A stretch of 64,000 nt of DNA from NCBI RefSeq assembly GCF_024298965.1, contig NZ_CP085193.1, positions 9,176,001 through 9,240,000 of the forward strand, in the 5' to 3' direction. This DNA is from Streptomyces rapamycinicus NRRL 5491. Its GTDB lineage: Bacteria; Actinomycetota; Actinomycetes; Streptomycetales; Streptomycetaceae. A model generated the notes under the pieces. It was not told the origin of the DNA. It did not search any database and worked only from the letters and a program-made list of their open reading frames with translations. A program made the position numbers and the translations under genes. Positions 7,016 to 42,919 of this stretch are shown piece by piece. Numbering within the stretch: the stretch's first letter is position 1; each line of letters begins with the position of its first letter.

Positions 7016-7354
7016 CTACCGCAGCGTCGCCGCCCCCAGCACCGCCAGCGCGACCGTGCAGGCGACGACGGCCGCGGCCGCCCGCGGGGACAGGGCGGGC
7101 GGCCGGGGCGCGTGCATGGCCCGGATGCGGAGGTGGGCCAGGGCCAGGAAGGCCAGCCAGGCCAGCACCACCAGGGCCAGGACCACGAGCGAGACCGGGT
7201 CGATACCGCTGTGCAGCGTCTGCCGCCCCGCGAGCGAGGCGGCCACCGCGCACGCGAGTGTCGTACGGCGCCACGCCAGCCGTGTCCGCTCCGGCTGGAG
7301 GCCGGGGTCCCGGTCCCGCGTTCGGGACCCGTCGGTCCCATTCCCTTCGGGCAT
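7016..7354 (-). CDS. DUF202 family small membrane protein
   Basis: A 112-residue protein with the DUF202 core: RTRLAWRRTTLACAVAASLA as first membrane helix, then VSLVVLALVVLAWLAFLALA and a third helix AAVVACTVALAVLGAATL. It is the last gene of a row of minus-strand genes, 18 bases after another DUF202 protein. DUF202 proteins are found as pairs of a short and a YidH-like member, as here; their function is unknown. The 30-residue hydrophilic N-terminus is low-complexity and charged. Confidence 0.85.
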   Translation of the reverse strand: MPEGNGTDGSRTRDRDPGLQPERTRLAWRRTTLACAVAASLAGRQTLHSGIDPVSLVVLALVVLAWLAFLALAHLRIRAMHAPRPPALSPRAAAAVVACTVALAVLGAATLR

Positions 7355-7372
7355 TGCCTCACACCTCCCGGC

Positions 7373-7825
7373 TCACCCGCCCCACCCGAAGGCGGCCACG
7401 ATCACCATCAGCAGTGCGACCACCCCGACCGCGAGCCCCAGCACGATCGGGAAGCGGGACGTCGGCAGGTCCTCGCCGCGCCGCATGGCCCGTTCGCAGC
7501 GGACCCAGTGGCTGATGGCCCGCAGGGCGCACAGCGCGCCAGCCGCCAGCAGCATGAGCGCGAGTGCGAGCCGCAGTGGGCGGCCGGTCTCCGGGAGGAA
7601 CTGGTCGACCGCGAATCCGCCGCCGACCAGCGCCATCGCGGTGCGCAGCCAGGCCAGGAAGGTCCGTTCGTTGGCGAGCGAGAAGCGGTAGTCGGGGGTG
7701 CTGCCCTCCTCGCGCAGTCGCTCGGGCGCGAACCACAGCCGGATGTCCGAGACCGCTGAGAGGCGGCCACGGCCACCCGGCTCGGTGTGGCGGGAAGGCT
7801 CCGAAGGCCCGGAAGAGTCCGTCAC
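7373..7825 (-). CDS. DUF202/YidH family membrane protein
   Basis: A 150-residue YidH-type membrane protein. The diagnostic FSLANERTFLAWLRTAMAL is followed by two further membrane helices (LRLALALMLLAAGALCALRA and FPIVLGLAVGVVALLMVIVA). The GTG start at 7825 overlaps the stop of the upstream Nudix gene in GTGA, so translation is likely coupled. It pairs with the shorter DUF202 protein downstream. The function of the family is not established. Confidence 0.88.
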   Translation of the reverse strand: MTDSSGPSEPSRHTEPGGRGRLSAVSDIRLWFAPERLREEGSTPDYRFSLANERTFLAWLRTAMALVGGGFAVDQFLPETGRPLRLALALMLLAAGALCALRAISHWVRCERAMRRGEDLPTSRFPIVLGLAVGVVALLMVIVAAFGWGG

Positions 7826-8358
7826 CTTTCGACCTTCTCACGGCGCCACTCCACCAGCCGCTGGTACGCCTCCCACCCGTCCGGCACCCACTCCCACTCG
7901 GGCAGTCGCCGCGTCAGCTCCTCCTCGGTGAGGAACGTGTGCCAGGCGACCTCCTCGGCCTGCGGATCGACGGGCAGCTCGCAGCGCACCTCGTAGATCC
8001 GGCTCCACCAGGTGTGCTCGGGCGTCTCGTAGAGGAACGAGAACAGCGGTACGGGCTCGGGCAGCCCCCGCACCCCCAGCTCCTCCTCGGCCTCGCGCAG
8101 CGCCGCCTCGTCGTAGCCCTCGCCCGCGCCGACGACGCCGCCGACGAACATGTCGTACAGCGAGGGGAAGACCAGCTTCTCGGCGGTGCGGCGATGGACG
8201 AAGATCCGGCCCTGGGCGTCCCGCGCCTGGATGAAGACGCAGCGGTGGCGGAGCCGGTGGGCCATGGCGTCACCGCGTCGGGCCTGGCCCACCACGCGAT
8301 CCCGCTCGTCCACGATGTCGAGCAGTTCGTTGGCGGAAAGCGGTTCCTGATCAGGCAT
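7822..8358 (-). CDS. Nudix hydrolase
   Basis: A 178-residue Nudix protein with a complete Nudix box in the GAGEGYDEAALREAEEELGV segment preceded by GGVV. The N-terminal part (IVDERDRVVGQARRGDAMAH, then HRCVFIQARD) resembles the YfcD/isopentenyl-isomerase-like subgroup. ATG 8358 is taken; a TTG four codons upstream is the alternative. It overlaps the DUF202 gene by GTGA and is 29 bases downstream of the glycine-rich protein gene. The hydrolysed nucleoside diphosphate derivative is unknown. Confidence 0.9.
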   Translation of the reverse strand: MPDQEPLSANELLDIVDERDRVVGQARRGDAMAHRLRHRCVFIQARDAQGRIFVHRRTAEKLVFPSLYDMFVGGVVGAGEGYDEAALREAEEELGVRGLPEPVPLFSFLYETPEHTWWSRIYEVRCELPVDPQAEEVAWHTFLTEEELTRRLPEWEWVPDGWEAYQRLVEWRREKVER

Positions 8359-8387
8359 ACCGCCATACAAGCAGATCGGGGGCGCGG

Positions 8388-9200
8388 TCAGCGCCGGTGC
8401 CCACCGCCGTAGCCGCCCCCGTACTCGCCGCCGTAGCCGTTTCCGCCGCCATAGCCGTTGCCACCGCCGTGGCCGTTCCCGCCGCCATAGCCGCCGCCGT
8501 AGCCGTTCCCGCCCCCGTAACCGCCGCCTTGGCCTTGCCCCTGCCCCTGACCCTGCCCCGGTCCGTACGGTCCGGAGCCACCGTCCTGGCCGCGCTGCCT
8601 GGCCTGCTGCTCGGCCCAGCTGTCGAACGCCTCCACCGCGTCCTGCCAGTCGTCGTACTGCCCCGGTCCCCGGGACGACCAGCCCGGCCAGGAGGGGGTG
8701 GAGCGGCCCTTGCCGGACGACGGGGCCGCGGGCTTGTCCGGTGCGGAGTCGCCCGCCGGCGCCTGGGCCGTCGGCTGGGTGGCGGCCGGTGGCCGCGGCT
8801 TGGGCTTCTCGGCGCGGGCGCCGCGCAGCGGGGTCTCGCCCGCCGCCGCCTCGGCGTACGGGACGGCATGGCTCTCGGGCTCGTCCGGCGCGGCCGTCGA
8901 GCTGTCGTGGCCGGAGGCGGCCGTCGCCTGGCGGGCGTCCTTGCCCATGAGCATGAAGAGCGCGGTGGCCGCGCCGGTGGCCGACAGCAGAATCGCCCCG
9001 GCGGCCGCCTTGCGCCGGTTGTCCACCGCGCGGCGGCGGGCGTGCCGGGGGCCGACCACTTCGCCGCGGAGCACCTGTGCCTCGTCCGCGGGCGGCCCGG
9101 CTTCGACGGGCTGCGGGCCGGGTGTGATGAGCGTCGGGTTCACCACACGACGTTCGACATCGGGCCTCGGCCCTAAGTGCTCAACGGAGCGTTCAGCCAT
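8388..9200 (-). CDS. Glycine-rich single-pass membrane protein, unknown function
   Basis: A 270-residue protein not recognised as a known family. About 55 hydrophilic residues (MAERSVEHLGPRPDVERR...) precede RRKAAAGAILLSATGAATAL, a single membrane segment near residues 62-84. A Pro/Ala-rich linker follows, then a short helical-looking QYDDWQDAVEAFDSWAEQQA, then Q-G repeats and a C-terminal tail of about 45 residues made almost only of YGGGN/HGGGN units. The ATG at 9200 matches where composition becomes protein-like. It is likely an exported, anchored, disordered tail. It is first in the row with Nudix and DUF202 genes. Confidence 0.75.
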   Translation of the reverse strand: MAERSVEHLGPRPDVERRVVNPTLITPGPQPVEAGPPADEAQVLRGEVVGPRHARRRAVDNRRKAAAGAILLSATGAATALFMLMGKDARQATAASGHDSSTAAPDEPESHAVPYAEAAAGETPLRGARAEKPKPRPPAATQPTAQAPAGDSAPDKPAAPSSGKGRSTPSWPGWSSRGPGQYDDWQDAVEAFDSWAEQQARQRGQDGGSGPYGPGQGQGQGQGQGGGYGGGNGYGGGYGGGNGHGGGNGYGGGNGYGGEYGGGYGGGHRR

Positions 9201-9346
9201 GGTCGATGATGATGCCCGTTTGGCCGAACCCTGTCCAATGTCGGTGAATGAATGTGACCTTTCGTTCCACGTCCAGGTTGCGCGGAGGGAGTTTGGCCGT
9301 CCGGCGCGGGGGCGGCAGCGGCTGGAAACCGCTCCCATACCCCGGG

Positions 9347-9375
9347 TTGACGCCGTACTGACCGGTAGGCAGGAT
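9347..9375 (+). promoter_or_regulatory. Candidate sigma-HrdB promoter of the FAD dehydrogenase gene
   Basis: TTGACG (9347-9352), a 17-base spacer and CAGGAT (9370-9375) match a housekeeping promoter well. It would give a leader of about 74 bases before the ATG at 9456. The rest of the 255-base divergent gap shows no other clear signal. Confidence 0.5.
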
Positions 9376-9455
9376 CGCGGTCATGGCGCCGTCGGCACAC
9401 CGCCGGCCCACCGTCGGCGAGCGTCGGCGGGCTCACGAGAACGGGACACCACACC

Positions 9456-11111
9456 ATGGCGTACGACGCGGATGTCATCGTGGTCGGCGCGGGGCTCGCG
9501 GGCCTCGCGGCCACCGCCGAACTGGCCGACGCCGGTCGTAAGGTGATCCTGCTCGACCAGGAGCCCGAGCAGTCGCTCGGCGGCCAGGCCCACTGGTCCT
9601 TCGGTGGTCTCTTCCTCGTCGACTCACCCGAGCAGCGCCGGCTGCGCATCCGTGACAGCCACGAACTCGCCTGGCAGGACTGGCTGGGCACGGCCGGGTT
9701 CGACCGCGAGGAGGACCACTGGCCGCGCCGCTGGGCCGAGGCGTACGTGGACTTCGCGGCGGGCGAGAAGCGGTCCTGGCTGCACGCCCAGGGGCTGCGG
9801 CTGTTCCCGCTGGTCGGCTGGGCCGAGCGCGGCGGCTACGACGCGACCGGACACGGCAACTCCGTCCCCCGCTTCCACATCACCTGGGGCACCGGACCCG
9901 GCATCGTGGCCCCCTTCGAGCGGCGGGTGCGGGCGGCCGTCGCCCGTGGCCTGGTCGAGCTGCGCTTCCGGCACCGGGTGACGGGGCTGGCCCGCAGCAC
10001 GGGCACGGTCGACACCGTCACCGGCGACATCCTGGAGCCCAGCCGGGCCGAGCGCGGCAGCCCCAGCAGCCGCGAGGTCACCGGCGCCTTCGAACTGCGC
10101 GCCCAAGCCGTGATCGTCACCTCCGGCGGCATCGGCGGCAACCACGACCTCGTCCGCGCCAACTGGCCCGAGCGGCTCGGCTCCCCGCCCGAGCAGATGA
10201 TCTCCGGGGTCCCGGCCCATGTGGACGGCCATATGCTCGGCATCGCCGAGGGGGCCGGTGGACGGATCATCAACCGCGACCGGATGTGGCACTACACCGA
10301 GGGCATCCAGAACTGGAACCCCATCTGGCCCCGGCACGGCATCCGCATCCTGCCCGGCCCGTCCTCCCTGTGGTTCGACGCGCGCGGCAAGCGGTTGCCG
10401 GTGCCGCTGTTCCCCGGTTTCGACACCCTCGGCACGCTCGAGCACATCATGCGGACCGGCCACGACTACACCTGGTTCGTGCTCACCCAGAAGATCATCG
10501 AGAAGGAGTTCGCGCTCTCCGGCTCCGAGCAGAACCCGGACCTCACCGGCAAGAGCGTCCGCGGGGTGATCGGCCGCGGCCGGGCCGGGGCGCCGGGCCC
10601 GGTCCAGGCGTTCATGGACCACGGCGCGGACTTCATCGTCGAGCGGTCGCTGCCGGCGCTGGTCCGGCGGATGAACGAGCTCACCAAGGAGCCGCTCATC
10701 GACGAGGCCGAGCTGCGGCGGGAGATCGAGGCCCGGGACCGTGAGATCGCCAACCCCTACACCAAGGACCTCCAGGTCACCGCGTTGCGCGGGACCCGTA
10801 AGTACATCGCCGACCGCCTCATCCGCACCGCGGCGCCGCACCGCGTTCTCGACCCCAAGGCGGGCCCGCTGATCGCGGTGCGGCTGAACATCCTGACCCG
10901 TAAGACGCTCGGCGGCCTGGAGACCGACCTCTCCTCCCGCGTCCTGACCGAGGGCGGCGAACCGCTGCCCGGCGTCTACGCGGCCGGTGAGGCGGCGGGC
11001 TTCGGCGGCGGCGGAGTGCACGGCTACCGCTCCCTGGAGGGCACCTTCCTGGGCGGCTGCCTCTTCTCGGGCCGTACGGCGGGCCGCGCGGCGGCCGAGG
11101 CGGTGGGGTAG
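9456..11111 (+). CDS. FAD-binding dehydrogenase (3-ketosteroid dehydrogenase-like)
   Basis: A 551-residue flavoprotein of the FAD_binding_2 fold. It begins with the dinucleotide motif DVIVVGAGLAGLAATAELAD and the acidic ribose-binding position LLDQEPE, followed by LGGQAHWSFGGL. The C-terminal FAD motif is GVYAAGEAAGFGGGGVHGYR and ends with FLGGCLFSGRTAGRAAA. Proteins of this length and pattern are a subgroup near ketosteroid delta-1-dehydrogenases and fumarate reductase flavoproteins; the substrate is not predictable. It is monocistronic between a divergent membrane-protein gene and the molybdo-enzyme gene 148 bases downstream. Confidence 0.9.
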   Translation: MAYDADVIVVGAGLAGLAATAELADAGRKVILLDQEPEQSLGGQAHWSFGGLFLVDSPEQRRLRIRDSHELAWQDWLGTAGFDREEDHWPRRWAEAYVDFAAGEKRSWLHAQGLRLFPLVGWAERGGYDATGHGNSVPRFHITWGTGPGIVAPFERRVRAAVARGLVELRFRHRVTGLARSTGTVDTVTGDILEPSRAERGSPSSREVTGAFELRAQAVIVTSGGIGGNHDLVRANWPERLGSPPEQMISGVPAHVDGHMLGIAEGAGGRIINRDRMWHYTEGIQNWNPIWPRHGIRILPGPSSLWFDARGKRLPVPLFPGFDTLGTLEHIMRTGHDYTWFVLTQKIIEKEFALSGSEQNPDLTGKSVRGVIGRGRAGAPGPVQAFMDHGADFIVERSLPALVRRMNELTKEPLIDEAELRREIEARDREIANPYTKDLQVTALRGTRKYIADRLIRTAAPHRVLDPKAGPLIAVRLNILTRKTLGGLETDLSSRVLTEGGEPLPGVYAAGEAAGFGGGGVHGYRSLEGTFLGGCLFSGRTAGRAAAEAVG

Positions 11112-31610: not shown

Positions 31611-33743
31611 CTAGGACACCAACTTGTCGAGGGTGATGGGCAGTTCGCGGATCCGGACACCGGTGGCGTGGTGCACGGCGTTGGCGATGGCCGCCGCGGT
31701 GCCCGTGATGCCCACCTCGCCGAGGCCCTTGGCCCCCATGGGGTTGGTGTACGGATCGGACTCGTCCACCCAGTGGGCCTCGACCGAGTGGACATCGGCG
31801 GCGGAGGCGATGTGGTACTGGGCGAAGTCCTGGTTGACCACATGGCCGAACCGCGGGTCCAGCACGCTGTGTTCGTACAGCGCCATCGAGATGCCCTGGG
31901 TCATTCCGCCGATCAGCTGGGAGCGGGCCGTCTTGGGGTTGATGACCCGGCCCACGTCGAACATGCCCAGCAGTCGCGCCACCCGCACCTCGCCGGTGTC
32001 CTCGTCCACCCGTACCTCGGCGAACTGGGCGCCGAAGCTGTGCATCGCGAAGCGCTCGGCCTCCGGATTGCCGCCGGGCAGCTCCGCGGTGACCTCCAGC
32101 CCCTCCGACGGCGCGATACCGCCGTGCTCGGCCTGCAGCCGGGCCCGCAGCCGGTCCGCAGCCTCCCAGATCGCGGTGCCCCAGCTGTTGATGCCCGCCG
32201 AGAACCCGGCGACCGACGCGGCAGGCAGCGCCGTGTCCCCGATCCGCATCTCCACCTGCCCGACCGGGACGCTCAGCGCGTCCGCGGCGATCTGGGTGAG
32301 CGCCGTCCAGGTGCCGGTGCCCAGGTCGGCGGCGGCGATCCGGACCGTGTAGTGGCCGTCCGGGGCGAGCCGGATCGTGGCCGCGTTGCCGGGGAAGCGG
32401 GGGGAGGGGTACGTCGAGGCGGCCACGCCGGTGCCCACCAGCCAGCGGCCCTCGCGCCGCGACCGGGGAACCGGGTCGCGGTGGTCCCAGCCGGCCCGGC
32501 GGGCGCCCTCGCGCAGACACTCCGTCAGATGGCGGCTGGAGAACGGCAGCCCGGACTCCGGATGCACCTCCGGCTCATTGCGGATCCGGAACTCCACCGG
32601 GTCGAGACCACAGGCGATCGCCATCTCGTCCAGCGCCGACTCCAGCGCGAACATCCCCTGCGCCTCGCCCGGCGCCCGCATGATCGTCGGCACCGGGACA
32701 TCCAGCGGGGCCAGCCGGTGGGTGGTGCGCCGGTGCGGCGCCGCGTACATCATCCGGGAGCAGACGCCCACCTGCTCCGCGTACCCCTTGGCCTTGGCGG
32801 TCTGCTCGATCACCTCGTGGCAGAGCGCGGTCAGCCTGCCGTCCCGGCCGGCGCCCAGCCGGATCCGCTGGATCGACGCCGGGCGGTAGCCCACCAGGGC
32901 GAACATCTGCTGCCGGGTCAGCGAGAACTTGACCGGCCGCCGGACCATCCGGGCCGCCATCGCGGCGAGCACGGCGTACGAGTGGGGGTAGACCTTCGAG
33001 CCGAACGCGCCCCCGACATGCGGGGAGATCACCCGCACCCGTCCCGGCTCGAGACCCAGCACCCCGGAGATCAGGGCCTGGCTCATGGAGGCGCCCTGGG
33101 TGGAGCAGCGCACGGTCAGCTCCCCGTCCAGCCAGGTGACCACGGCGGTGTGCGGCTCCATCGGGTTGTTGTGGTACATCGGCGTGGAGTACGTGACGTC
33201 CACCATGGTCGGCGAGGCCGCCAGCGCCGTATCGACGTCCCCGAGCACACTGTCGGCGGGCGAGCCGTCCTGGAGCTCCCCGCCGCCCGAGCCGAAGGTC
33301 GCTGCGTGCACCGGGGAGTAGAGGTCGCCGCGGTCGGCGCGCAGCTCCACATCGGGGGGCCGGCTCTCGTAGTCCACGCGGACGAGCCCCGCCGCGCGGC
33401 GCGCGGTCTCCAGGCTCTCGGCCACCACCGCCCCGATGAACTGGCCGCGCCAGGCGACCTCGTCGGACTGGAGCACCGCGAGCTCCGGATCCTCCGGCCG
33501 GGTCAGCGTGGGCGCGTTGAGATGGCTGAGCACCGCCAGCACCCCCGGCTCCGCCTCCGCGAGCGCGCCGTCCACTCCGGTGACCCGCCCGGCGGCGATC
33601 GTGGACTGCAGCGGATACAGATAGACGGGCTGGTCGAGGGGCCATTCATAGGCGTAGGTGGCGGTGCCGGTGACCTTCTGCACACCGTCGATACGGTCCA
33701 TCGGGACGCCGATGGCGCGGGGGCGTGCCGTGACGTCGCTCAT
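31611..33743 (-). CDS. Xanthine dehydrogenase family molybdopterin-binding subunit (PaoC-like)
   Basis: A 710-residue large subunit of a molybdenum hydroxylase. Domains are the aldehyde oxidase/xanthine dehydrogenase a/b hammerhead (GTATYAYEWPLDQPVYLYPL) followed by the Mo-pterin domain with GGAFGSKVYPHSYAVLAAM, IMRAPGEAQGMFALES and the catalytic Glu motif GAKGLGEVGITGTAAAIANA. It overlaps the FAD subunit gene by ATGA. Composition and order match the E. coli PaoABC aldehyde oxidoreductase more than true xanthine dehydrogenase. Confidence 0.94.
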   Translation of the reverse strand: MSDVTARPRAIGVPMDRIDGVQKVTGTATYAYEWPLDQPVYLYPLQSTIAAGRVTGVDGALAEAEPGVLAVLSHLNAPTLTRPEDPELAVLQSDEVAWRGQFIGAVVAESLETARRAAGLVRVDYESRPPDVELRADRGDLYSPVHAATFGSGGGELQDGSPADSVLGDVDTALAASPTMVDVTYSTPMYHNNPMEPHTAVVTWLDGELTVRCSTQGASMSQALISGVLGLEPGRVRVISPHVGGAFGSKVYPHSYAVLAAMAARMVRRPVKFSLTRQQMFALVGYRPASIQRIRLGAGRDGRLTALCHEVIEQTAKAKGYAEQVGVCSRMMYAAPHRRTTHRLAPLDVPVPTIMRAPGEAQGMFALESALDEMAIACGLDPVEFRIRNEPEVHPESGLPFSSRHLTECLREGARRAGWDHRDPVPRSRREGRWLVGTGVAASTYPSPRFPGNAATIRLAPDGHYTVRIAAADLGTGTWTALTQIAADALSVPVGQVEMRIGDTALPAASVAGFSAGINSWGTAIWEAADRLRARLQAEHGGIAPSEGLEVTAELPGGNPEAERFAMHSFGAQFAEVRVDEDTGEVRVARLLGMFDVGRVINPKTARSQLIGGMTQGISMALYEHSVLDPRFGHVVNQDFAQYHIASAADVHSVEAHWVDESDPYTNPMGAKGLGEVGITGTAAAIANAVHHATGVRIRELPITLDKLVS

Positions 33744-34729
33744 CGCGCCTCCTCCAGCAGCTCCAGCAGGGTGCTGACCATCGTGTTGCGGGCGAGCGGG
33801 ACCTTGAAGGCGTTGCCCGCCAGCGGCCGCGCCGCGGCCAGTTCGGCGGCGGCCGCGTCCACGAAGCTCTCCCGGGTGGCGGGCGCGCCGCGCAGCATCG
33901 CCTCGGCCGTGGTGGCCCGCCAGGGCTTGTGCGCCACTCCGCCCAGCGCGATGCGCGCATCTCGTACCGCCCCGTCGGTGACCTCCAGCGCGGCGGCGAC
34001 CGAGACCAGCGCGAAGGCGTACGAGGCGCGGTCGCGCACCTTGCGGTAGCGGGAGCGGGTCGCGGAGTGCGGGGGCGGCAGCTCCACTCCGGTGATCAGC
34101 TCACCGCGCTCCAGGACGGTGTCGCGGTCGGGGGCGTCCTCCGGCAGCCGGTGCAGCCGGGTCAGCGGGATCCGCCGCTCGGCGGCCGGGCCGGTCACCG
34201 TCACCACCGCGTCCAGCGCGGCCAGCGCGACGGCCATGTCGGAGGGGTGGGTGGCCACACAGACGGGGGAGGCGCCCAGGATCGCCATATCGCGCTGATA
34301 GCCCTCCATCGCCGAGCAGCCCGAGCCCGGTATGCGCTTGTTGCAGGGGGTGGTGACGTTCTGGAAGTACGGGCAGCGGGTGCGCTGGAGCAGATTGCCG
34401 CCGGTGGTGGCGAGGTTGCGCAGCTGGCCCGAGGCGCCCGAGAGCAGCGCCTGGGAGAGCACCGGATAGCGCCGCCGGACCCGCTGGTCGGCGGCCAGAT
34501 CGCTGTTGGGCACCGCCGCGCCGATCCGCAGCCCCCCGTCGGGCAGTTCCTCGATCCGGTCCGAGGTGAGCCGCCGGACGTCGATCAGCACCTCCGGGGT
34601 CGTCACCTCAAGACGCATCAGATCGACCAGATTGGTGCCCCCGGCCAGATAGGCCGCCTCGGGCTCCCTCACCAGGGTGGCGACGGCCGCCGGCACCTCA
34701 TCGGCGCGTTCGTAGCGAAAGGGCTTCAT
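33740..34729 (-). CDS. FAD-binding subunit of aldehyde oxidoreductase (PaoB-like)
   Basis: A 329-residue CO-dehydrogenase-flavoprotein-type subunit. FAD motifs are YLAGGTNLVDLMRLEV and TTGGNLLQRTRCPYFQNV. The Cys set RTRC...PCNKRIPGSGCSA and PVCVATHPSDM matches the insertion that binds an extra [4Fe-4S] cluster in E. coli PaoB. It overlaps both neighbours by ATGA. It links the 2Fe-2S subunit to its external acceptor. Confidence 0.94.
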   Translation of the reverse strand: MKPFRYERADEVPAAVATLVREPEAAYLAGGTNLVDLMRLEVTTPEVLIDVRRLTSDRIEELPDGGLRIGAAVPNSDLAADQRVRRRYPVLSQALLSGASGQLRNLATTGGNLLQRTRCPYFQNVTTPCNKRIPGSGCSAMEGYQRDMAILGASPVCVATHPSDMAVALAALDAVVTVTGPAAERRIPLTRLHRLPEDAPDRDTVLERGELITGVELPPPHSATRSRYRKVRDRASYAFALVSVAAALEVTDGAVRDARIALGGVAHKPWRATTAEAMLRGAPATRESFVDAAAAELAAARPLAGNAFKVPLARNTMVSTLLELLEEAR

Positions 34730-35232
34730 CGGTGCGCCACCTCCGCGATCGCCGGGACGATGTTCGCGTACGCGGCGCAGCGGCACAGATTGCCGCTCAT
34801 CCGCTCGGCGATCTCCTCGTCGTCGAGCACCACATCGGTGGCGCCCGGATCCTTGCTCACGGCGCTGGGCCAGCCGTTCCCGGCCTCCTGGAGCATCCCG
34901 GCCGCCGAGACGATCTGACCGGGTGTGCAGTAGCCGCACTGGAAGGCGTCATGGGCGATGAACGACCGCTGGAGCGGATGCAGCTCACCGTCGGTGAGCC
35001 CGGCCGCCGTGACGATGTCCGCGCCCTGGTGGGCGACGGCCAGTGCGAGGCAGCCGAGGATCCGGCGGCCGTCGAGCAGCAGGGTGCAGGCGCCGCACTG
35101 TCCGTGGTCGCAGCCCTTCTTGGGGCTGGTGTTCCCCAACTGTTCGCGCAGGGCGTCCAGCAGTGTCGTACGGGTGTCGACGGTGAGGCGGTGCTCGGTC
35201 CCGTCCACCCGGAGCTCGATCTCGAGGTCCAT
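34726..35232 (-). CDS. 2Fe-2S subunit of aldehyde oxidoreductase (PaoA-like)
   Basis: A 168-residue protein with two [2Fe-2S] clusters. The N-terminal plant-type cluster is CDHGQCGACTLLLDGRRILG, and the C-terminal helical cluster has CGYCTPGQIVSAAGM and GNLCRCAAYANI. Unlike E. coli PaoA it has no Tat signal, so the complex should be cytoplasmic. It is the first gene of a four-gene operon. No XdhC/PaoD-type Mo-cofactor chaperone gene is adjacent. Confidence 0.94.
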   Translation of the reverse strand: MDLEIELRVDGTEHRLTVDTRTTLLDALREQLGNTSPKKGCDHGQCGACTLLLDGRRILGCLALAVAHQGADIVTAAGLTDGELHPLQRSFIAHDAFQCGYCTPGQIVSAAGMLQEAGNGWPSAVSKDPGATDVVLDDEEIAERMSGNLCRCAAYANIVPAIAEVAHR

Positions 35233-35412: not shown

Positions 35413-36069
35413 TCAGGTGCGCTGGATCACGGCTTCCAGATGGGGCAGATAGTGGTCCATGCGATCCCGCTTGGTGAGCAGATACGGGAGGTTCTCCTTG
35501 TGCGGAGTCATCAGCAGCGGCACCTGCTCGCTGACCCGGACGCCGTGCCGCAGCAGCGCGTCCCGCTTCTGGGGGTTGTTGGACAGCAGCCGTACGGAAC
35601 GCACCTCGAGGTCGTGCAGCACATCCGCAGCCACCTTGTAGTCACGGGCGTCCGCCGGCAGGCCGAGGGCGAGGTTGGCCTCGACGGTGTCCAGCCCCTC
35701 GGACTGGAGCTTCATCGCCTGGAGCTTGGCGAGCAGCCCGATCCCGCGCCCCTCATGGCCTCTCAGATACACCAGAACGCCCCGGCCTTCGGCCGCGATC
35801 GCCTTCAGCGCGGCGGACAGCTGGTCGCCGCACTCGCAGTGACGGGAGCCGAACGCGTCTCCGGTGAGGCACTCGGAATGCAGCCGGGTAAGCGCTTCCT
35901 CCCCGCCGACATCGCCGTATACCAGCGCTATTTGTTCATCACCGCGCACGAGGTCCCGATAGCCGATCGCGAGAAAGTCGCCATGCTTCGTGGCCAGCCG
36001 GACATTCACCACTCGTTCGACACCCGAGGTGCGGGTGTCGACATCGAACACGCCATCACTTTCTGTCAT
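35413..36069 (-). CDS. ribA: GTP cyclohydrolase II homologue, predicted FAPy-forming (SCO6655-like)
   Basis: A 218-residue stand-alone GTP cyclohydrolase II. Zinc ligands Cys67, Cys78 and Cys80 are in HSECLTGDAFGSRHCECG, and RGHEGRGIGLL and LGLPADARDYKVAADVL are conserved. The residue equivalent to E. coli Tyr105 is Met119 (AKLQAMKLQSEG). In S. coelicolor SCO6655 the matching Met120 makes the enzyme release the formylated 2-amino-5-formylamino-6-ribosylaminopyrimidinone phosphate instead of the deformylated product. No riboflavin genes lie nearby. It is divergent from the creatininase-family gene with a 79-base gap. Confidence 0.93.
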   Translation of the reverse strand: MTESDGVFDVDTRTSGVERVVNVRLATKHGDFLAIGYRDLVRGDEQIALVYGDVGGEEALTRLHSECLTGDAFGSRHCECGDQLSAALKAIAAEGRGVLVYLRGHEGRGIGLLAKLQAMKLQSEGLDTVEANLALGLPADARDYKVAADVLHDLEVRSVRLLSNNPQKRDALLRHGVRVSEQVPLLMTPHKENLPYLLTKRDRMDHYLPHLEAVIQRT

Positions 36070-36148
36070 GTCCCGATCTTATCTGGAAAACCACCGCCCT
36101 TGTACAGGAGAATGAGAAAGCCGCAGCAACAAGCTGTCAGGACGACGC

Positions 36149-36916
36149 ATGAAAGGTCCACGAGATATGAGCGGTTCGGGAACGCGCCCGCAGGCCGGCA
36201 TGGTGTTGCCGACACGGACGACGGAGGAAGTGCGGGCCGACCGGGTCGATGTCGCCGTTCTTCCCGTAGGCAGCTTCGAACAACACGGCGCATTTCTCCC
36301 ACTGGTGACCGACACGGTCATCGCCTGCACGGTCGCAGCTGAGATCGCGGCCGCGTATCCGGTGCTCCAACTGCCCCCGGTGACGGTCTCCTGCTCCCAT
36401 GAACACGCCGCCTGGCCAGGGACGGTGTCGATATCCGCGGCCACCCTCTACGCCGTCGTCCGCGATATCGCGGACTCACTCAGGCGCTCGGGTATACGCG
36501 GTCTGATTCTGGTGAACGGACACGGCGGAAATTATGTACTGCGCAACATCGTGCAGGAATCCGCGGGCACTGACTTCCGCATGGCGCTATTCCCCGGATC
36601 GGCCGACTGGGAGACCGCCAGGACACGCGCCGGAGTACGCACCCCGGCCAACAGCGATATGCACGCGGGCGAACTGGAGACATCGATCCTCCTGTATGCC
36701 CATCCGGAACTCGTACGGCCCGGTCATGAAACCTCCGACTGGATATCCGACGATCGGAAACATCTGCTCACCCTCGGTATGTCCGCCTATACCGAGTCCG
36801 GGGTCGTCGGCCGTCCGTCCAGGGCATCCGCGGACAAGGGAAAGGAACTCCTGGCCGGGCTCGTCGACTGCTTCGCCGAGTATCTTTCCCTGGTCGGTGC
36901 CGAGAAGGAGGCGTGA
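36149..36916 (+). CDS. Creatininase family amidohydrolase, possible FAPy deformylase
   Basis: A 255-residue metal-dependent amidohydrolase of the creatininase/ArfB/MftE fold. Metal-site motifs are VGSFEQHGAFLPLVTDT, VNGHGGNYVL and the Glu of SDMHAGELETS. ATG 36149 (AGGA upstream) or 36167 may be the start. In archaea ArfB of this family removes the formyl group from the FAPy compound, so its position beside a FAPy-type cyclohydrolase argues for that step here. It overlaps the reductase gene by ATGA. It is an assignment by family plus context. Confidence 0.85.
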   Translation: MKGPRDMSGSGTRPQAGMVLPTRTTEEVRADRVDVAVLPVGSFEQHGAFLPLVTDTVIACTVAAEIAAAYPVLQLPPVTVSCSHEHAAWPGTVSISAATLYAVVRDIADSLRRSGIRGLILVNGHGGNYVLRNIVQESAGTDFRMALFPGSADWETARTRAGVRTPANSDMHAGELETSILLYAHPELVRPGHETSDWISDDRKHLLTLGMSAYTESGVVGRPSRASADKGKELLAGLVDCFAEYLSLVGAEKEA

Positions 36917-37962
36917 TGACCTTCCTGGAGACGGAAGAGGCATGGGAGCGGCTGCGCTCCGTCCGGACCGAGGCGGACACCGGGGCCGCCGGTCTGGTCC
37001 GGGGCCCGGACGGCCGGTGGCGGTGGAACGAGGCCGCCTCGCCGGAGGCCCGGCTCCTGGTCGACCGCTACCTCCCGCTGTGCCTGGCCGGGCCGCGGCT
37101 GACCATCGCTCAGCTCGGCCAGAGCCTGGACGGCTTCATCGCCACCCGCACCGGCGACGCCGACTACGTCACCGGCGAGGAGGACCGCCGCCATCTCCAC
37201 CGGCTGCGCGCACTCGCCGACGCGGTGGTCGTCGGGGCCGGCACCGCCGTGGCGGACGACCCCCAGCTGACCGTGCGCGCCTGCGCGGGCGCCCACCCGG
37301 TGCGGGTCGTTCTCGATCCGCGCGGACGGGTGCCGCTCGGCCGACGGGTGTTCACCGATGGCTCAGCTCCGACCCTCTGGGTGGTGGGCACCACCGGTGA
37401 GCGCCGGCCGGCGCCGCCGGACGGCGTGGACGTGCTGACGCTTGACGACCCGGACGCCTTTGCCCCCCACCACCTGGTGCGGGCGCTTCGGCGGCGCGGG
37501 CTCGGCCGGATACTCGTCGAGGGCGGCGGGGTCACCGTGTCGCGCTTCCTGCACGCGGGGGCGCTGCACCGGCTCTACGTCACCGTGGCCCCGGTCCTGC
37601 TCGGCGACGGCATCCCCGGGCTGCGCTTCGACGGGACGACCGTCATGCGGGACGCGCTCCGCCCCCCGGTCCGCCGCGACACCCTCGGCGAGGACTCCCT
37701 CTTCGAACTCGACCTGTCGGCCCCGCAGCCGGCCGTACCACTGGACGGCCAGCACCACGACACCGGGGAGGCTCGCGGCGAAGGTGAGCACCCCGTAGAC
37801 CATGGCCACGGTCAGCCCCTGGCTCGCGCCCAGGCCCGCGGCGCCGAAGGCCCAGGCGGTCACGCCCTCGCGGGGGCCCCAGCCGCCGACGTTCAGCGGC
37901 AGGGCCATGGCGATCAGGGCGAGCACCATCAGGGGCACCAGCTCGGTCAGCGGGGCGTCTGA
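36913..37962 (+). CDS. RibD C-terminal-type pyrimidine reductase, with abnormal antisense tail
   Basis: A 349-codon frame. Residues about 60-270 form the dihydrofolate-reductase-like RibD_C domain: LTIAQLGQSLDGFIATRTGD, VVVGAGTAVADDPQLTVR, RILVEGGGVTVSRF. It would reduce the ribosyl side chain of the pyrimidine to ribityl with NADPH. Normal homology ends at about FELDLSAP (37725); the last 79 codons run antisense through the membrane domain of the convergent YbhN-type gene and look non-protein-like. Start overlaps the creatininase stop. A deaminase domain is absent. Confidence 0.88.
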   Translation: MMTFLETEEAWERLRSVRTEADTGAAGLVRGPDGRWRWNEAASPEARLLVDRYLPLCLAGPRLTIAQLGQSLDGFIATRTGDADYVTGEEDRRHLHRLRALADAVVVGAGTAVADDPQLTVRACAGAHPVRVVLDPRGRVPLGRRVFTDGSAPTLWVVGTTGERRPAPPDGVDVLTLDDPDAFAPHHLVRALRRRGLGRILVEGGGVTVSRFLHAGALHRLYVTVAPVLLGDGIPGLRFDGTTVMRDALRPPVRRDTLGEDSLFELDLSAPQPAVPLDGQHHDTGEARGEGEHPVDHGHGQPLARAQARGAEGPGGHALAGAPAADVQRQGHGDQGEHHQGHQLGQRGV

Positions 37963-38667
37963 CCCCGCCACCCGCGCGGCCAGGACGAACGTCGTCAGAT
38001 GCCCGGCCAGCACCACCACTGAGGAGATCACCACCCCCGGCCAGCTGCCCCGGGCCAGCAGCCCGCGGCGCGCCTCGAGGAGTGCGCCGCGGACCGAGCC
38101 CCGCCGCCGCCCGGCCACCGGCGCCGCGCGGCGGTGGCGCCGGACGGCCACCACCGCGAGGAGCGACAGGACGCCCACCGTGGCCAGTACCCATGCCGTG
38201 GCCGGCCCGCCGATCAGCCGGCCGGTGTGTTCCAGGACCAGGGAGGGGTGGGCCAGCAGGATCGCCACCCCCACCGCGATCAGCACCACCTGGCCCGCGA
38301 CCCGCTCCAGCACCACCGCGCGCACGCCCCGGCCGACATCGCCCGCGTCCCGCCCGTGCCGCACCGCGCGGTGCACATCGCCGAGCACCCCGCCGGGCAG
38401 CGCGGCATTGAGGAACAGCGCGCGGTAGTAGTCGGCGACGGCCGGGCCCAGCGGCAGCCGGATCCGCAGCCCACGCGCCACCAGACACCAGCGCCAGGCT
38501 TGGAAGACCGTGGTGAGCAGGCCGAGGCCGACCGCCGCCAGCAGGGTGCGCCCGTCGACGGTGCGCAGGCCCTCGACGAAGGCGCCGGTACCCAGCCGCC
38601 ACAGCACCACCCCGAGGATGGCGACGCCCGCGGCCGCCCCGAGCCGGGCCCGCAGCGCGCCGGTCAC
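37363..38667 (-). CDS. YbhN/UPF0104 (lysylphosphatidylglycerol synthase TM-like) membrane protein
   Basis: A 434-codon frame. The first about 310 residues are a polytopic membrane protein of the YbhN/AglD family: WRWCLVARGLRIRLPLGPAV, ALFLNAALPGGVLGDVHRAV, LERVAGQVVLIAVGVAILL and MALPLNVGGWGPREGVTAWA. The final 125 codons past VVVLAVQWYGRLRGR are antisense to the reductase gene and look spurious. GTG 38667 overlaps the methyltransferase stop. Family members take part in transfer or flipping of lipid-linked sugars or amino acids. Confidence 0.85.
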   Translation of the reverse strand: MTGALRARLGAAAGVAILGVVLWRLGTGAFVEGLRTVDGRTLLAAVGLGLLTTVFQAWRWCLVARGLRIRLPLGPAVADYYRALFLNAALPGGVLGDVHRAVRHGRDAGDVGRGVRAVVLERVAGQVVLIAVGVAILLAHPSLVLEHTGRLIGGPATAWVLATVGVLSLLAVVAVRRHRRAAPVAGRRRGSVRGALLEARRGLLARGSWPGVVISSVVVLAGHLTTFVLAARVAGSDAPLTELVPLMVLALIAMALPLNVGGWGPREGVTAWAFGAAGLGASQGLTVAMVYGVLTFAASLPGVVVLAVQWYGRLRGRQVEFEEGVLAEGVAADRGAERVPHDGRPVEAQPGDAVAEQDRGHGDVEPVQRPRVQEARHGDPAALDEYPAEPAPPKRPHQVVGGKGVRVVKRQHVHAVRRRRPALTGGAHHPEGRS

Positions 38668-39500
38668 GCGGCCGCCCCCAGTGTGCGGGGCGCGGGCAGC
38701 GCCAGCAGATCGTGGTGGTGCACCACCACCCGCAGCGCGCCCGCCGCGGCCATCGCCAGCCGGCGGCGCAGATACGCCTCGGCGTGCGCGCCGAGCTCCG
38801 GCCGGTGGTCCACGGCCGCGCCCACCCAGCCCCGCAGCCACTCGGCCGTCAGCGCGGAGTGCTCGGCGCCCAGCACCCAGGGGCTGGCGTGGGTCCGTAC
38901 CGTCGCGCCGTGCCGGGTGAACGCCTCGGAGGCCACCGCCATCGCGTCGGGGCCCACCAGACCGCCGCGCCGCTGATGGGCGTTGAACGCCTCGGTGATC
39001 TCCGCGTCCATCGGGTCGGCCGGGGTGAGCTCGACCCGCCCCACCACGGACAGCGCCAGCAGCGCCGGGCACTCCGCCTCGGCGCAGGCCGCGGCGATCC
39101 CGTCCACCTCCTCGGGGGTGAGCACGTCCAGCAGCGCGGACGCCGTCACCAGCGAGGCGCCGTCCAGCGTGCTCGCGGTCAGCCGGGAGAGGTCGCCGCG
39201 CGCCGTCGCGACGGTGATGCGGCTGCCGTCGGTGGCGGCCCGGGGCATCCGCACCGCCGCCCGGTCCAGCAGATCGGGGTCGCGGTCGTGCAGGATCCAC
39301 AGCTGCGGGCCGCTCAGCCGGGGCGCCAGCCAGCGCCCCATGGAGCCGGTGCCGCAGCCCAGGTCGTGGATCACCAGCGGCGGGCCGGACAGCCGGGGGC
39401 CGAGCGCCTCGAGGAGTTCGGGGGAGCGGGCCGCCGCGTCGGCGGCCTCCCGCAGCTCCAGCCAGTCGGGTGTGTAACGCGGTACGTCGGTCGTCTTCAC
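38664..39500 (-). CDS. SAM-dependent methyltransferase
   Basis: A 278-residue class I methyltransferase. VIHDLGCGTGSMGRWLAPRL is the SAM-binding motif I, LWILHDRDPDLLDRA holds the acidic motif II, and SLVTASALLDVLTPEEVDGI is motif IV. GTG 39500 overlaps the glycosyltransferase stop (GTGA), and its own stop overlaps the next start in the same way. It would methylate an intermediate of this pathway; whether O-, N- or C- cannot be read. Confidence 0.9.
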   Translation of the reverse strand: MKTTDVPRYTPDWLELREAADAAARSPELLEALGPRLSGPPLVIHDLGCGTGSMGRWLAPRLSGPQLWILHDRDPDLLDRAAVRMPRAATDGSRITVATARGDLSRLTASTLDGASLVTASALLDVLTPEEVDGIAAACAEAECPALLALSVVGRVELTPADPMDAEITEAFNAHQRRGGLVGPDAMAVASEAFTRHGATVRTHASPWVLGAEHSALTAEWLRGWVGAAVDHRPELGAHAEAYLRRRLAMAAAGALRVVVHHHDLLALPAPRTLGAAA

Positions 39501-40603
39501 GCGGCCCTCCGCGGTTCGTGTCGGAGCTGTTCCAGCGCACCGGCCAGATTGCGGGTGGTGTTCTCCCACCCGGCCAGCGCGGTGCGCCGCTCGTGCGCGG
39601 CGGCGGTGAGCCGGCGCCGCGCACCGGGGTCGCCCAGCCAGCGGCGCAGCGCCGCGGTGAGCGCGTCGGGGTCGTCCGGGTCGACGAGGATGCCCGGCAC
39701 CCTGCCGTCGGGTGCCTGCCCGACCGCCTCCGGAACCCCGCCGACGGCCGTGGCCAGCACCGGGATCCCCCGGGCCAGCGCCTCGGTCACCGCCATGCCG
39801 TAGGTCTCGGCGTACGAGGCGAGCACCATCGCGTCGGCGGAGGCGTAGCCGGCGTCCAGCTCGGCGCCGGTCCTCGGGCCGAGCAGATGCACCCGGTCGG
39901 CCACGCCCAGCTTCCCGACCAGCTTCCGGAGCCGGGCGGCGTACTCCGGGTCCTGCTCGAGGGAGCCCACGAGGTCGCAGCTCCAGGGCAGATCGTCGAT
40001 CCGCGCGAGCGCCTCGACCAGCCGCAGCTGCCCCTTGCGCGGGGTCACCGAGGCCACGCACAGCAGCCGCGAGCCCTCGCCGCCCGAGGAGGCGAGCGGC
40101 GCGATGTCGGCGCCGGGCGCCGCCACATGGACCCGGTCCGGGACCAGCCCGTGCAGATCCACCAGCCGCCCGGCCGCCCAGGCGCTGGTGGCCACCACGG
40201 TCCGCACCGCGCGCAGCGTCCGGCCCTCCAGCGCCTTCAGATCCTCGGCCCGGCCGGGGGCCAGCCCGGTCTCGTCGCTCAGCGGCAGATGCACCAGCAC
40301 CGACAGCCGCAGCCGCTGTGCCTGCGGAACGACGATGTACGGGAGCGCACAGGCCACCAGCCCGTCGAGCAGGACCAGCGTGCCGTCCGCCAGCGCGGTC
40401 AGGAGCCGGGCCAGCTCGGCGCGGGCGGCCGGGCCCGGCTGGGGCCAGTCGCCCGCGATGGCGTGCTCCTCGACCCGCCAGCCGGAGCCGGGCAGGTCCC
40501 GGCAGATCCGCCGGTCGTAGACGTTGCCGCCGCTCGGCGCGGCCGGATCGGCCACGCCGCCGGGCATCACGAAGTGCACCGTGCGCGGTGCGGCCCGGGT
40601 CAT
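39497..40603 (-). CDS. Family 4 glycosyltransferase of the FAPy cluster
   Basis: A 368-residue GT-B glycosyltransferase. The N-terminal domain has [20 protein letters not shown], the donor domain [20 protein letters not shown] and the EX7E motif [20 protein letters not shown]. It overlaps the PTPS-like gene by ATGA and the methyltransferase gene by GTGA. It would attach a sugar to the pterin/pyrimidine product or its lipid carrier. Confidence 0.92.
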
Positions 40604-40998
40604 AGGCCACGCTCGTAACTCGCCCAGGCGACATGCGACTCATGCAGCGTGACGGCGATCCCGGACAGGCCCCGGGCGCCCTCGCCCAGCGCCCCCGAGC
40701 CCACCCGCTCGGCGAGGCGGTCGGCGATCACCTTGGCGAGGAACTCGGTGGAGGTGTTGATCCCCTTGAAATCGGGTTCGTCGTCGAGGTTGCGATAGCT
40801 GAGCGCGCCGCACACCTCCCCCAGCTCACGGGTGGCCAGGCCGATGTCGACGACGATGTTGTCGTCGTCCAGCTCGGCACGGCGGAAGGTGGCGTCCACG
40901 AGGAACGTCGCCCCGTGCAACCGCTGCGCGGGTCCGAAGACCTCGCCGCGAAAACTGTGAGCGATCATGATGTGATCGCGAACGGTGATGCTGAACAA
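40600..40998 (-). CDS. 6-pyruvoyltetrahydropterin synthase/QueD homologue lacking catalytic residues
   Basis: A 132-residue T-fold protein of the PTPS/QueD family (S. coelicolor SCO6650-like). His14 and His28 match two zinc ligands, but the catalytic Cys of QueD is replaced by Ala24 (PAQRLHG) and the third zinc ligand by Ala30 (HGATF). [30 protein letters not shown] and [13 protein letters not shown] are otherwise typical. It is thus unlikely to do the standard lyase reaction and may bind or rearrange another pterin or pyrimidine. It leads the four-gene overlapping block. Confidence 0.88.
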
Positions 40999-41076
40999 CG
41001 GATGACCCTCCAGATACGGCGCGTCGGGCCCTCGTCCGGGGCACGCCCTCTAGTACGGCCGTCGCGTTCCCCGTGT

Positions 41077-42075
41077 TCAGACGGATGACACGGCAGATTC
41101 CGCGTCGTAGCGAACCCGGTGGCACAGCCCCGGAATCTCGCCCGACGCGAGCCGCGGAAGCACCTCGGGAAGCTCCTCGAAACCGCATTCGCCGGTGACG
41201 AGGGCGTCGAAGGCGGGGTCGGCGAGCAGTTCGAGCGCCAGCGCCATCCGGTCGCCGTAGGAGCGGCGGGCGCCCCGGGCCGGGGACACCGTCCCCACCT
41301 GGCTGCTGCGCACCGTCAGCCGCCGGGAGTGGAACGCCTCGCCCAGCGGCAGGCCGATCCGCCGGTCCCCGTACCAGCTCAGCTCCAGTACGGTGCCCTC
41401 CGGGGCGAGGAGCTCCAGCGAGCGCGCGAGCCCCTGTTCGGTGGCGCTGGCGTGCACCACCAGATCGAGGTCGCCCGCCGCCTCCCCGGGGAGCGCGAAG
41501 TCCACCCCGAGCGCCCGCGCGACCTCCGCGCGCGCCGGGTCGGCGTCCACCAGCTGCACCCGTACGGCCGGGAACCGGGACAGCACCGCCGCGACGGAGG
41601 CACCCACCATCCCCGCCCCCACCACCGCGATCCGGTCGCCCAGCAGCGGCGCGGCGTCCCACGCGGCGTTCACCGCGGTCTCCACCGTCCCCGCCAGCAC
41701 CGCGCGCGGCGCGGGCACGCCCTCCGGCACCGGGGTCACCGCGCTCGCCGGGACCACATAGCGGGTCTGATGCGGATACAGACTGAAGACGGTGCGCCCC
41801 CGCAGGGACGCCGGCCCCTCCTCGACCAGCCCCACATTGAGATAGCCGTACTTCACCGGCCCCGGGAACTCGCCGTCCTGGAACGGCGCGCGCATCGCGG
41901 AGTACTGGCTCTCCGGTACGCCACCGCGGAAGACCAGGGTCTCCGTACCGCGGCTCACCCCGGAGCACAGCGTGCGCACCACCACGTCCTCGGGACCGGG
42001 TTCGGCCAGGTCCACCTCCCGTATCTCGCCATGGCCGGGGGAGCGGAGCCAGAAGGCACGGGCGGTGCGCGTCAT
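41077..42075 (-). CDS. Zinc-type alcohol dehydrogenase (MDR family)
   Basis: A 332-residue medium-chain dehydrogenase. The N-terminal catalytic domain has VVVRTLCSGVSRGTETLVFR; the Rossmann part has RIAVVGAGMVGASVAAVLSR and VQLVDADPARAEVARALGVD. No structural-zinc four-Cys lobe is seen, as in the BchC/TDH-like group. ATG 42075 has AGGAG 9 bases upstream. It lies 78 bases before the PTPS-like gene on the same strand and probably opens this operon. Confidence 0.88.
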   Translation of the reverse strand: MTRTARAFWLRSPGHGEIREVDLAEPGPEDVVVRTLCSGVSRGTETLVFRGGVPESQYSAMRAPFQDGEFPGPVKYGYLNVGLVEEGPASLRGRTVFSLYPHQTRYVVPASAVTPVPEGVPAPRAVLAGTVETAVNAAWDAAPLLGDRIAVVGAGMVGASVAAVLSRFPAVRVQLVDADPARAEVARALGVDFALPGEAAGDLDLVVHASATEQGLARSLELLAPEGTVLELSWYGDRRIGLPLGEAFHSRRLTVRSSQVGTVSPARGARRSYGDRMALALELLADPAFDALVTGECGFEELPEVLPRLASGEIPGLCHRVRYDAESAVSSV

Positions 42076-42193
42076 ACGACGTTCTCCTGAGGGGCTGAAC
42101 AATCGGACGGTGGCCCACGTACGGATGACCATGAAGCCGCGAACACGGTACGCGGCACCCATTCACTCCGCCACACAGCCCGGAGGGTGCACG

Positions 42194-42919
42194 GTGGCCC
42201 TGAACAATCCCTACAACACGACGCCGTTGCGGAACGAGACGGCGGTGGGCGCGGCCGCTCAGCTGCTGTTGCTCGTCCTGCTCGGCACGGCGATCGACCT
42301 CGGGCCCGCGGGCTGGCTGACCGGCCTGGCCTTCGCGGTCGCCACCTGGGCCGTGCTCACCCGCGCCCTGCAACGGTCCTGGCTCGCCTCCTTCGGCGCG
42401 GCCAACCGCGTCACCCTGGCGCGGGCCACGCTCGTCGGCGGGGTGACCGCGCTGGTCGCCGACTCCTTCGAGAGCCCGACGCCGGTCACCGCCCTGGTGG
42501 CGCTCACCGCGGTCGCGCTGATCCTCGACGCGGTCGACGGACAGGTCGCGCGCCGCACCGGCACCTCGTCCTCCCTGGGCGCGCGGTTCGACATGGAGGT
42601 CGACGCCGTCCTCATCCTGGTGCTCAGCATCTATGTGGCCACCCTCCTCGGCCCCTGGGTGCTGCTGATCGGCGCCATGCGCTACGCCTTCGTCGCCGCG
42701 GCAAGGGTGCTGCCCTGGCTGAACGGCCGGCTGCCCCCGAGCACGGCCCGCAAGACGGTGGCCGCGCTCCAGGGCGTCCTGCTGCTGGTCGTCGGCGCCG
42801 ATGTGCTCCCGTATCCGGCGGCCTTCGGCGCCGCCCTGCTGGCCCTGACCCTGCTCAGCTGGTCCTTCGCCCGCGACATCAGGTGGCTGTGGCGCACCCG
42901 GGCCGACCGGGCGCAGTGA
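42194..42919 (+). CDS. CDP-alcohol phosphatidyltransferase
   Basis: A 241-residue integral membrane enzyme. The complete signature D-x2-D-G-x2-A-R-x8-G-x3-D-x3-D is at LDAVDGQVARR...GARFDMEVD. Membrane helices flank it on both sides. The GTG at 42194 has GGAGGG 8 bases upstream. It moves a phosphatidyl or CDP-linked group to an alcohol and would place a lipid on, or make a lipid acceptor for, the product. It is divergent from the alcohol dehydrogenase (118-base gap). Confidence 0.92.
   Translation: MALNNPYNTTPLRNETAVGAAAQLLLLVLLGTAIDLGPAGWLTGLAFAVATWAVLTRALQRSWLASFGAANRVTLARATLVGGVTALVADSFESPTPVTALVALTAVALILDAVDGQVARRTGTSSSLGARFDMEVDAVLILVLSIYVATLLGPWVLLIGAMRYAFVAAARVLPWLNGRLPPSTARKTVAALQGVLLLVVGADVLPYPAAFGAALLALTLLSWSFARDIRWLWRTRADRAQ

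Follow-up and report, generated by a model that had tools for sequence, protein, structure and literature searches.

We describe nine contiguous genes of Streptomyces rapamycinicus NRRL 5491, lying within a window of 64,000 nucleotides (positions 9176001-9240000 of the 12.47-Mb chromosome). The main new result is that, across related loci, a creatininase-family protein is tied to those GTP cyclohydrolase II (GCHII) enzymes that have a residue other than Tyr at a switch position, the predicted source of FAPy (2-amino-5-formylamino-6-ribosylaminopyrimidinone 5'-phosphate). We lean toward the view that the genes form an accessory actinobacterial cluster that makes a GTP-derived pyrimidine or pterin, separate from riboflavin and cofactor F420, by a pathway of five steps. 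GCHII would open GTP with the formyl group kept, giving FAPy; the creatininase-family protein, judging by co-occurrence, would then remove that group to yield 2,5-diamino-6-ribosylaminopyrimidinone 5'-phosphate. A T-fold protein of the PTPS-IV subfamily and a non-zinc dehydrogenase, a nearly universal pair, may remodel the pyrimidine, most likely by closure to a pterin, with a RibD_C reduction as an optional aid. A GT4 glycosyltransferase would add a sugar and a methyltransferase a methyl group. Finally, a CDP-alcohol phosphatidyltransferase and a YbhN membrane protein may attach the product or its partner to the membrane and translocate it, in some loci together with an LtaS-like phosphotransferase. 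The first two predicted steps are well supported by the comparative evidence; the product and the membrane link are hypotheses, as are the rearrangement, step order, and lipid anchoring proposed in the initial annotation.

The comparison covered 140 loci, all distinct by PTPS and dehydrogenase sequence. Sixty comprised 40 of the 41 places found in other genera (all but one, which sits on a contig of 4.2 kb) and 20 loci of the same genus, hand-picked and mostly on long contigs. The further 80 named loci were the best 80 of at least 584 PTPS-encoding stretches (one genome may hold several) in a species-level genome collection, and many of them are from Streptomyces. Presence was counted by tblastn (E <= 1e-6) within the fetched stretch; some stretches end at contig ends, and absences can be artifacts.

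The window GCHII has three Cys residues aligned to the zinc cysteines C54, C65, and C67 of the Escherichia coli enzyme, and Met where the E. coli enzyme has Tyr105; the genome's own RibBA has Tyr there. SCO6655 of Streptomyces coelicolor reportedly forms FAPy from GTP; in it a Met takes the place of the residue that we equate with Tyr105 of E. coli RibA, an exchange that lets the reaction end at FAPy. The switch residue supports a predicted FAPy-type activity for the window enzyme. Among the 118 local GCHIIs this residue is Met in 84, Tyr in 16, His in 9, Leu in 7, and Gln in 2 (L082, scored Tyr by alignment, was set by hand). Creatininase accompanies 101 of the 102 non-Tyr enzymes and none of the 16 Tyr enzymes (Fisher p 7e-19, not readable as many independent events because the GCHII tree has a single switch change). 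Even the exception, L070, has a creatininase, 62 percent identical, about 13 kb from PTPS and beyond the fetched stretch (G432:C1:3221860). Fifteen other genomes were searched whole, four of them Tyr-type (of the 16 Tyr-type loci) and eleven without GCHII in the fetched stretch: fourteen have no creatininase homolog at E <= 1e-20, and the Tyr-type G110 has a 39 percent homolog elsewhere in its genome. The co-occurrence with a non-Tyr switch residue points to the creatininase as a FAPy deformylase, the role for which the initial annotation had made it a candidate. RibD_C is found in all 16 Tyr loci and in 12 of the 102 non-Tyr loci.

The GCHII tree shows a single change of the switch and two changes each for creatininase and RibD_C; one of the two creatininase changes is the apparent loss in L070, removed by the copy about 13 kb away. 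In the 46-row tree, one three-way fork gives rise to the genome's own RibBA, a Tyr group of 15 rows, and a non-Tyr group of 28 rows; the latter two have 89 percent support each (not starred), and L093 lies outside. Because the two GCHII types sit in different tree groups and yet serve the same core, Tyr-type and FAPy-type supply modules look interchangeable. Indeed, one core fed either by a canonical GCHII or by a FAPy-type GCHII plus creatininase is what would be expected if both supply the same diaminopyrimidine.

The creatininase motifs EQHG, TDT, NGHGGN, and DMHAGE, presumably the metal and active-site motifs of the family, are conserved in 103 sequences. At E <= 1e-40 the protein occurs in 17 of 396 phylum genomes, three of them outside the genus. 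One of these settings, L226, belongs to another class and holds in a row (7094-10332) a protein without a Pfam match, a RibD_C protein, a cytidine-deaminase-family protein, and a creatininase; the 19.9 kb searched there gave no match to PTPS. This row is possibly a different FAPy-using operon and supports an independent context for creatininase in FAPy chemistry. In L227, L228, and the second G229 copy (L229), no other cluster gene was matched, and the neighbors in L227 and L229 are weakly helix-turn-helix- or TPR-like; these contexts neither help nor harm.

The initial annotation had named a lack of co-conservation as the finding that would count against it. Across the 140 loci the genes are co-conserved: PTPS is present in 140, the dehydrogenase in 139, GT4 in 138, the phosphatidyltransferase in 130, YbhN in 127, the methyltransferase in 127, GCHII in 118, creatininase in 102, and RibD_C in 35, where the methyltransferase and GT4 counts may include non-orthologous members of the same superfamilies. 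Of the 138 loci having the dehydrogenase, PTPS, and GT4 genes, 136 keep all three on the same strand in a span of 3.5 kb; outside this trio the gene order is shuffled and the content largely kept. PTPS is accessory, since it occurs in only 64 of 393 genomes of the class, spread over 23 of 122 genera, and in 22 of 61 same-genus genomes. With a dehydrogenase threshold of E <= 1e-60 and five candidates scored per genome, settings at which distant copies can escape, the dehydrogenase is found in 63 of the 393, namely the PTPS genomes minus G121 (lists compared by eye). In G121 PTPS itself is matched only weakly (34 percent, E 2.6e-7), next to a dehydrogenase match of 35 percent (L093). The association of PTPS with the dehydrogenase, in 139 of 140 loci and in a shared profile over 393 genomes, is more than chance.

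RibD_C, in contrast, is optional and lies outside the conserved core. In 105 of the 140 loci the fetched stretch contains no match to it. For 16 Streptomyces genomes without a local copy, the best match elsewhere is weak (E 3.8e-12), against E 2e-109 or better in five that have one locally. As an obligatory step, the local reduction to a ribityl compound proposed initially is thus not supported. A fusion of GCHII to RibD_C in L090 nevertheless counts for the pathway that we favor. RibD_C-type domains occur at 14 places in the window genome, so that RibD_C alone would be weak evidence.

The genes assigned early on to membrane attachment are a likely membrane end of the pathway, given the YbhN and phosphatidyltransferase counts above and an LtaS-like partner that some loci carry as a fusion or alongside. 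The full CDP-alcohol phosphotransferase motif, DxxDGxxAR...GxxxDxxxD, is present in the window phosphatidyltransferase and conserved over 131 aligned sequences. Its sequence group includes 16 long proteins, nine of them over 690 amino acids and labeled fused by length; the L059 and L069 fusions, read directly, contain both parts, and Pfam finds the phosphatidyltransferase in L059. Stand-alone proteins of the second part, in L114 and L080, have weak Pfam sulfatase matches (21 and 26 bits, cutoff 25). When the L114 protein is modeled with AlphaFold (pLDDT 83.8), LtaP and LtaS rank first among its structural matches (TM-score 0.38-0.41 by query length), followed by other phosphoglycerol and phosphoethanolamine transferases and sulfatases; a profile of the LtaS-like family run against PDB sequences matched only in the phosphatidyltransferase part. 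These observations suggest phospho-alcohol transfer in some relatives only. A different arrangement, in which the membrane genes are a separate lipid or teichoic-type module that merely shares the locus and the pyrimidine product is soluble, deserves serious thought although we judge it rather unlikely. It would fit the varying orientation and place of the phosphatidyltransferase, the LtaS-like gene that often lies elsewhere, and the distant loci L087-L089 and L091, which show only PTPS, dehydrogenase, and GT4 in the 12-20 kb examined, but not the 4-nt overlap of YbhN with the methyltransferase gene in the window, nor the fact that YbhN and the phosphatidyltransferase persist through rearrangement in 127 and 130 of the 140 loci, respectively.

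Canonical PTPS and QueD enzymes bind zinc through an HGH motif and use a catalytic Cys, Asp, and His. The window PTPS has HGA for HGH and Ala, Ser, and Tyr for the catalytic residues, and so has neither the third zinc-binding His nor the catalytic set by which membership in that family would be recognized. On the other hand, H14, H28, E85, and E120 do not vary among 23 aligned sequences, distant ones included, and we take E120 to be the pterin-binding glutamate of the fold. FGPAQ, the PTPS-IV signature (PMC5445326), is found in 138 of the 140 loci, the window included. Because PTPS and the dehydrogenase are nearly inseparable, we infer that they act on one intermediate. Zinc-dependent alcohol dehydrogenases carry the catalytic ligands Cys46 and GHE; in our reading of the alignment, the dehydrogenase has SGVSRGTE and KYGYL there. 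This corrects the original label of alcohol dehydrogenase: without the zinc motifs, the protein is a non-zinc MDR member. It matches the BchC model weakly (46 bits, cutoff 291). For GT4, the best PDB match is a D-inositol 3-phosphate glycosyltransferase (MshA-type, 78 bits), with a weak match to tetrahydrobiopterin glucosyltransferase (27 bits). The genome also holds a second PTPS-family gene outside the window, at position 9871329, which scores 105 bits to Pfam PTPS, above the window copy.

Alternatively, no pterin might be closed, and the pathway would leave the diaminopyrimidine open, with a ribosyl or ribityl chain, and then oxidize, glycosylate, and methylate it. The PTPS-IV protein without PTPS catalytic residues favors this, as do the 35 of 140 loci that carry RibD_C (L090 as a GCHII fusion) and SCO6650, which is said to show no PTPS activity. 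We nevertheless hold it unlikely in view of the invariant E120 and of a T-fold partner and dehydrogenase almost never apart, a pairing that suits ring formation with side-chain redox. Within the pterin reading itself, a bolder version, which we regard as a long shot, would see the cluster as a dismantled GTP cyclohydrolase I, with separate proteins for ring opening, deformylation, Amadori-type rearrangement, and closure. PTPS-IV, a T-fold protein like GTP cyclohydrolase I, would close the pterin ring. Where RibD_C is present there would be a redox bypass of the rearrangement, in which RibD_C reduces the ribosyl chain and the dehydrogenase reoxidizes C2' to a ketone. After glycosylation and methylation, the pterin would serve as the head group of a new phospholipid.

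The evidence supports a second, non-riboflavin use of GTP via FAPy, as first proposed: besides the switch residue, the riboflavin genes are elsewhere. The window genome has two GCHII copies, one in the window and the other at 2587442. The riboflavin-type GCHII and RibD_C (2.587-2.590 Mb; the RibD_C domain in a 444-amino-acid frame at 2589353) adjoin the lumazine synthase gene, about 6.6 Mb from the cluster. No lumazine synthase is encoded in the cluster, again as the initial annotation had it, the single copy in a genome-wide search being at 2586798 (the search did not extend to riboflavin synthase). GCHII, deformylase, and RibD_C are nonetheless riboflavin-type enzymes, in L226 the creatininase adjoins a reductase and a deaminase, and BrbF serves riboflavin in Sinorhizobium (PMC9478397). 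These observations would suit a spare or secreted-flavin branch, an alternative riboflavin entrance of the kind proposed for the RibBA and BrbF branches of Sinorhizobium. We rejected such a branch as improbable: the lone lumazine synthase lies far from the window, the most-kept core is PTPS-dehydrogenase-GT4, found even without a local GCHII, and no deaminase domain was detected in ten scanned proteins of the cluster and its edge. A role of PTPS-IV in F420 synthesis, stated for archaea as an unpublished remark in a passage of PMC5041015, is very improbable in Streptomyces, where PTPS is not co-distributed with CofH/FbiC: CofH is above cutoff in all 10 tested same-genus genomes without PTPS and not above cutoff in G077, which carries PTPS-dehydrogenase-GT4, and PTPS is in only 22 of 61 same-genus genomes.

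Several observations weigh against the pathway that we favor from GTP via FAPy to a membrane-linked product. The link between switch residue and creatininase is one evolutionary change, not 102 independent cases. The supply part is variable, with GCHII missing from 22 and RibD_C from 105 of the 140 stretches; L198 has a creatininase without GCHII in the 11.9 kb examined, and L194 has PTPS alone in 20 kb. The best NCBIfam model for the creatininase is MftE, a peptidase (131 bits, cutoff 172); a mycofactocin MftE-type peptidase was dropped as a candidate, being the best match yet below cutoff. Pterin formation would have to be carried out by a PTPS-IV protein without the residues of the known PTPS reaction. 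Lastly, the LtaS-like part is matched in only 20 of 140 stretches, and in the window genome its homolog (65 percent identical) is in trans at 1230300, with no cluster gene matched in the surrounding 19.5 kb.

Table 1. The nine genes of the cluster, with positions in the window.
Gene product	Position	Strand	Basis
GCHII, predicted FAPy-type	35413..36069	-	Pfam PF00925; residue alignment; zinc Cys conserved; Met at E. coli Tyr105 position
Creatininase-family amidohydrolase, proposed FAPy deformylase	36149..36916	+	PF02633; conserved motifs; co-occurrence with switch residue
RibD_C reductase without deaminase domain	36913..37962	+	PF01872; best PDB match 6p8c (diaminopyrimidine reductase)
YbhN / LPG-synthase TM-region membrane protein, putative flippase	37363..38667	-	PF03706; 127/140 loci
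Class I SAM-dependent methyltransferase	38664..39500	-	PF13649; 127/140 loci
GT4 retaining glycosyltransferase	39497..40603	-	PF00534; best PDB match MshA-type
PTPS-IV type T-fold protein, SCO6650 / PDB 3d7j ortholog	40600..40998	-	Pfam; FGPAQ signature; alignment
Non-zinc MDR dehydrogenase, weakly BchC-like, PTPS partner	41077..42075	-	start inferred
CDP-alcohol phosphatidyltransferase, complete motif	42194..42919	+	PF01066; start inferred; 130/140 loci

The nine-gene observation at 35413-42919 is confirmed, each family named initially being matched by Pfam search: GTP_cyclohydro2 (E 5e-64), Creatininase (5e-64), RibD_C (2e-37), LPG_synthase_TM for YbhN (4e-36), Methyltransf_25 (3e-6), Glycos_transf_1 (2e-30), PTPS (1.5e-22), CDP-OH_P_transf (1e-13), and, for the dehydrogenase, ADH_zinc_N (1.6e-5; 25.3 bits, below the Pfam cutoff of 31.8). 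Four gene pairs overlap by 4 nt (36913-36916, 38664-38667, 39497-39500, and 40600-40603), as in translationally coupled operons. On the minus strand are the dehydrogenase, PTPS, GT4, methyltransferase, and YbhN genes, the last four linked by such overlaps; on the plus strand the creatininase and RibD_C genes are joined in the same way. GCHII (minus) and the phosphatidyltransferase (plus) flank these seven genes. A promoter and terminator scan found nothing. The closest named PTPS relatives among the matches listed are those of Streptomyces samsunensis, S. sabulosicollis, and S. rugosispiralis (95-97% identity).

The RibD_C and YbhN frames (36913-37962 and 37363-38667) run tail to tail, with a stop-to-stop overlap that measures 592-595 nt here and in six of the window's close relatives; among 13 loci the overlap has other lengths in five (178 to 1081) and is absent from L116. 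The Pfam domains, ending near 37698 in RibD_C and near 37767 in YbhN, do not overlap each other, and the RibD_C tail beyond 37698 is probably read-through antisense to YbhN in DNA of 73 percent GC. Eight of the 140 stretches carry a second methyltransferase with an FVGQESFM motif (for example L059:16788-17570 and L080:17707-18501), which in several adjoins the phosphatidyltransferase. In L062, L066, L097, and L098, an MFS-type transporter and another methyltransferase-like protein, both named by sequence reading, lie between the methyltransferase and GT4. A three-gene molybdenum-hydroxylase-like set (31611-35232; xanthine-dehydrogenase-like, named by reading) adjoins the cluster and is probably outside the system, as its large subunit was matched in only 1 of 60 loci (L099).

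Among known systems, the nearest are the S. coelicolor proteins to which the initial annotation had already pointed. The window PTPS is the ortholog of SCO6650, aligned over its whole length to PDB 3d7j, and the window GCHII has Met at the switch position reported for SCO6655. The papers on these two reportedly treat single proteins, and to our knowledge neither the creatininase link nor the PTPS-dehydrogenase core pair appears in them; the present finding supplies a partner for a FAPy-forming GCHII, a creatininase-family hydrolase next door. The archaeal ArfB/ArfC route likewise runs through FAPy, a deformylase, and a reductase, in the same chemical order. It differs in starting from GTP cyclohydrolase III, where GCHII stands here, and the ArfB model gives the creatininase only 36.2 bits (cutoff 180), so that we do not class it as ArfB.

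The open-licence literature yielded no description of the cluster's product, in agreement with the initial annotation, while parts of the neighborhood are already published (PMC5445326, PMC9478397); a 2026 review of bacterial pterin signaling (PMC13259868) does not include the cluster and mentions neither Streptomyces nor Actino-. If the proposal is true, Actinobacteria would gain a class of GTP-derived compounds of which we found no member. The FGPAQ signature places the window protein with the PTPS-IV subfamily (PMC5445326; Zallot 2016, PMC5041015), beside which GCHII and RibD_C are already listed in PMC5445326 (AGeNNT 2017). The dehydrogenase, GT4, creatininase, YbhN, and phosphatidyltransferase, in contrast, are not named for PTPS-IV in the available excerpts of these papers, and the cluster offers a testable role for PTPS-IV, a solved fold without a function. 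Pterin glycoside systems (Chlorobium, PMC5683033; cyanobacteria, PMC13259868) also place a glycosyltransferase beside pterin chemistry; they start from GTP cyclohydrolase I, and the GT4 here is nearest to D-inositol 3-phosphate glycosyltransferase. Closest in proposed reaction is BrbF of Sinorhizobium and Brucella, a FAPy formamidase first annotated as a creatininase (PMC9478397), which we liken to the window protein by that annotation and reaction. That paper leaves open the FAPy source in its own organism and the more distant BrbF homologs. BrbF serves riboflavin, whereas here a FAPy-type GCHII adjoins the creatininase in a pathway apparently not leading to riboflavin, an arrangement that puts a predicted FAPy-forming enzyme beside a creatininase-family hydrolase.

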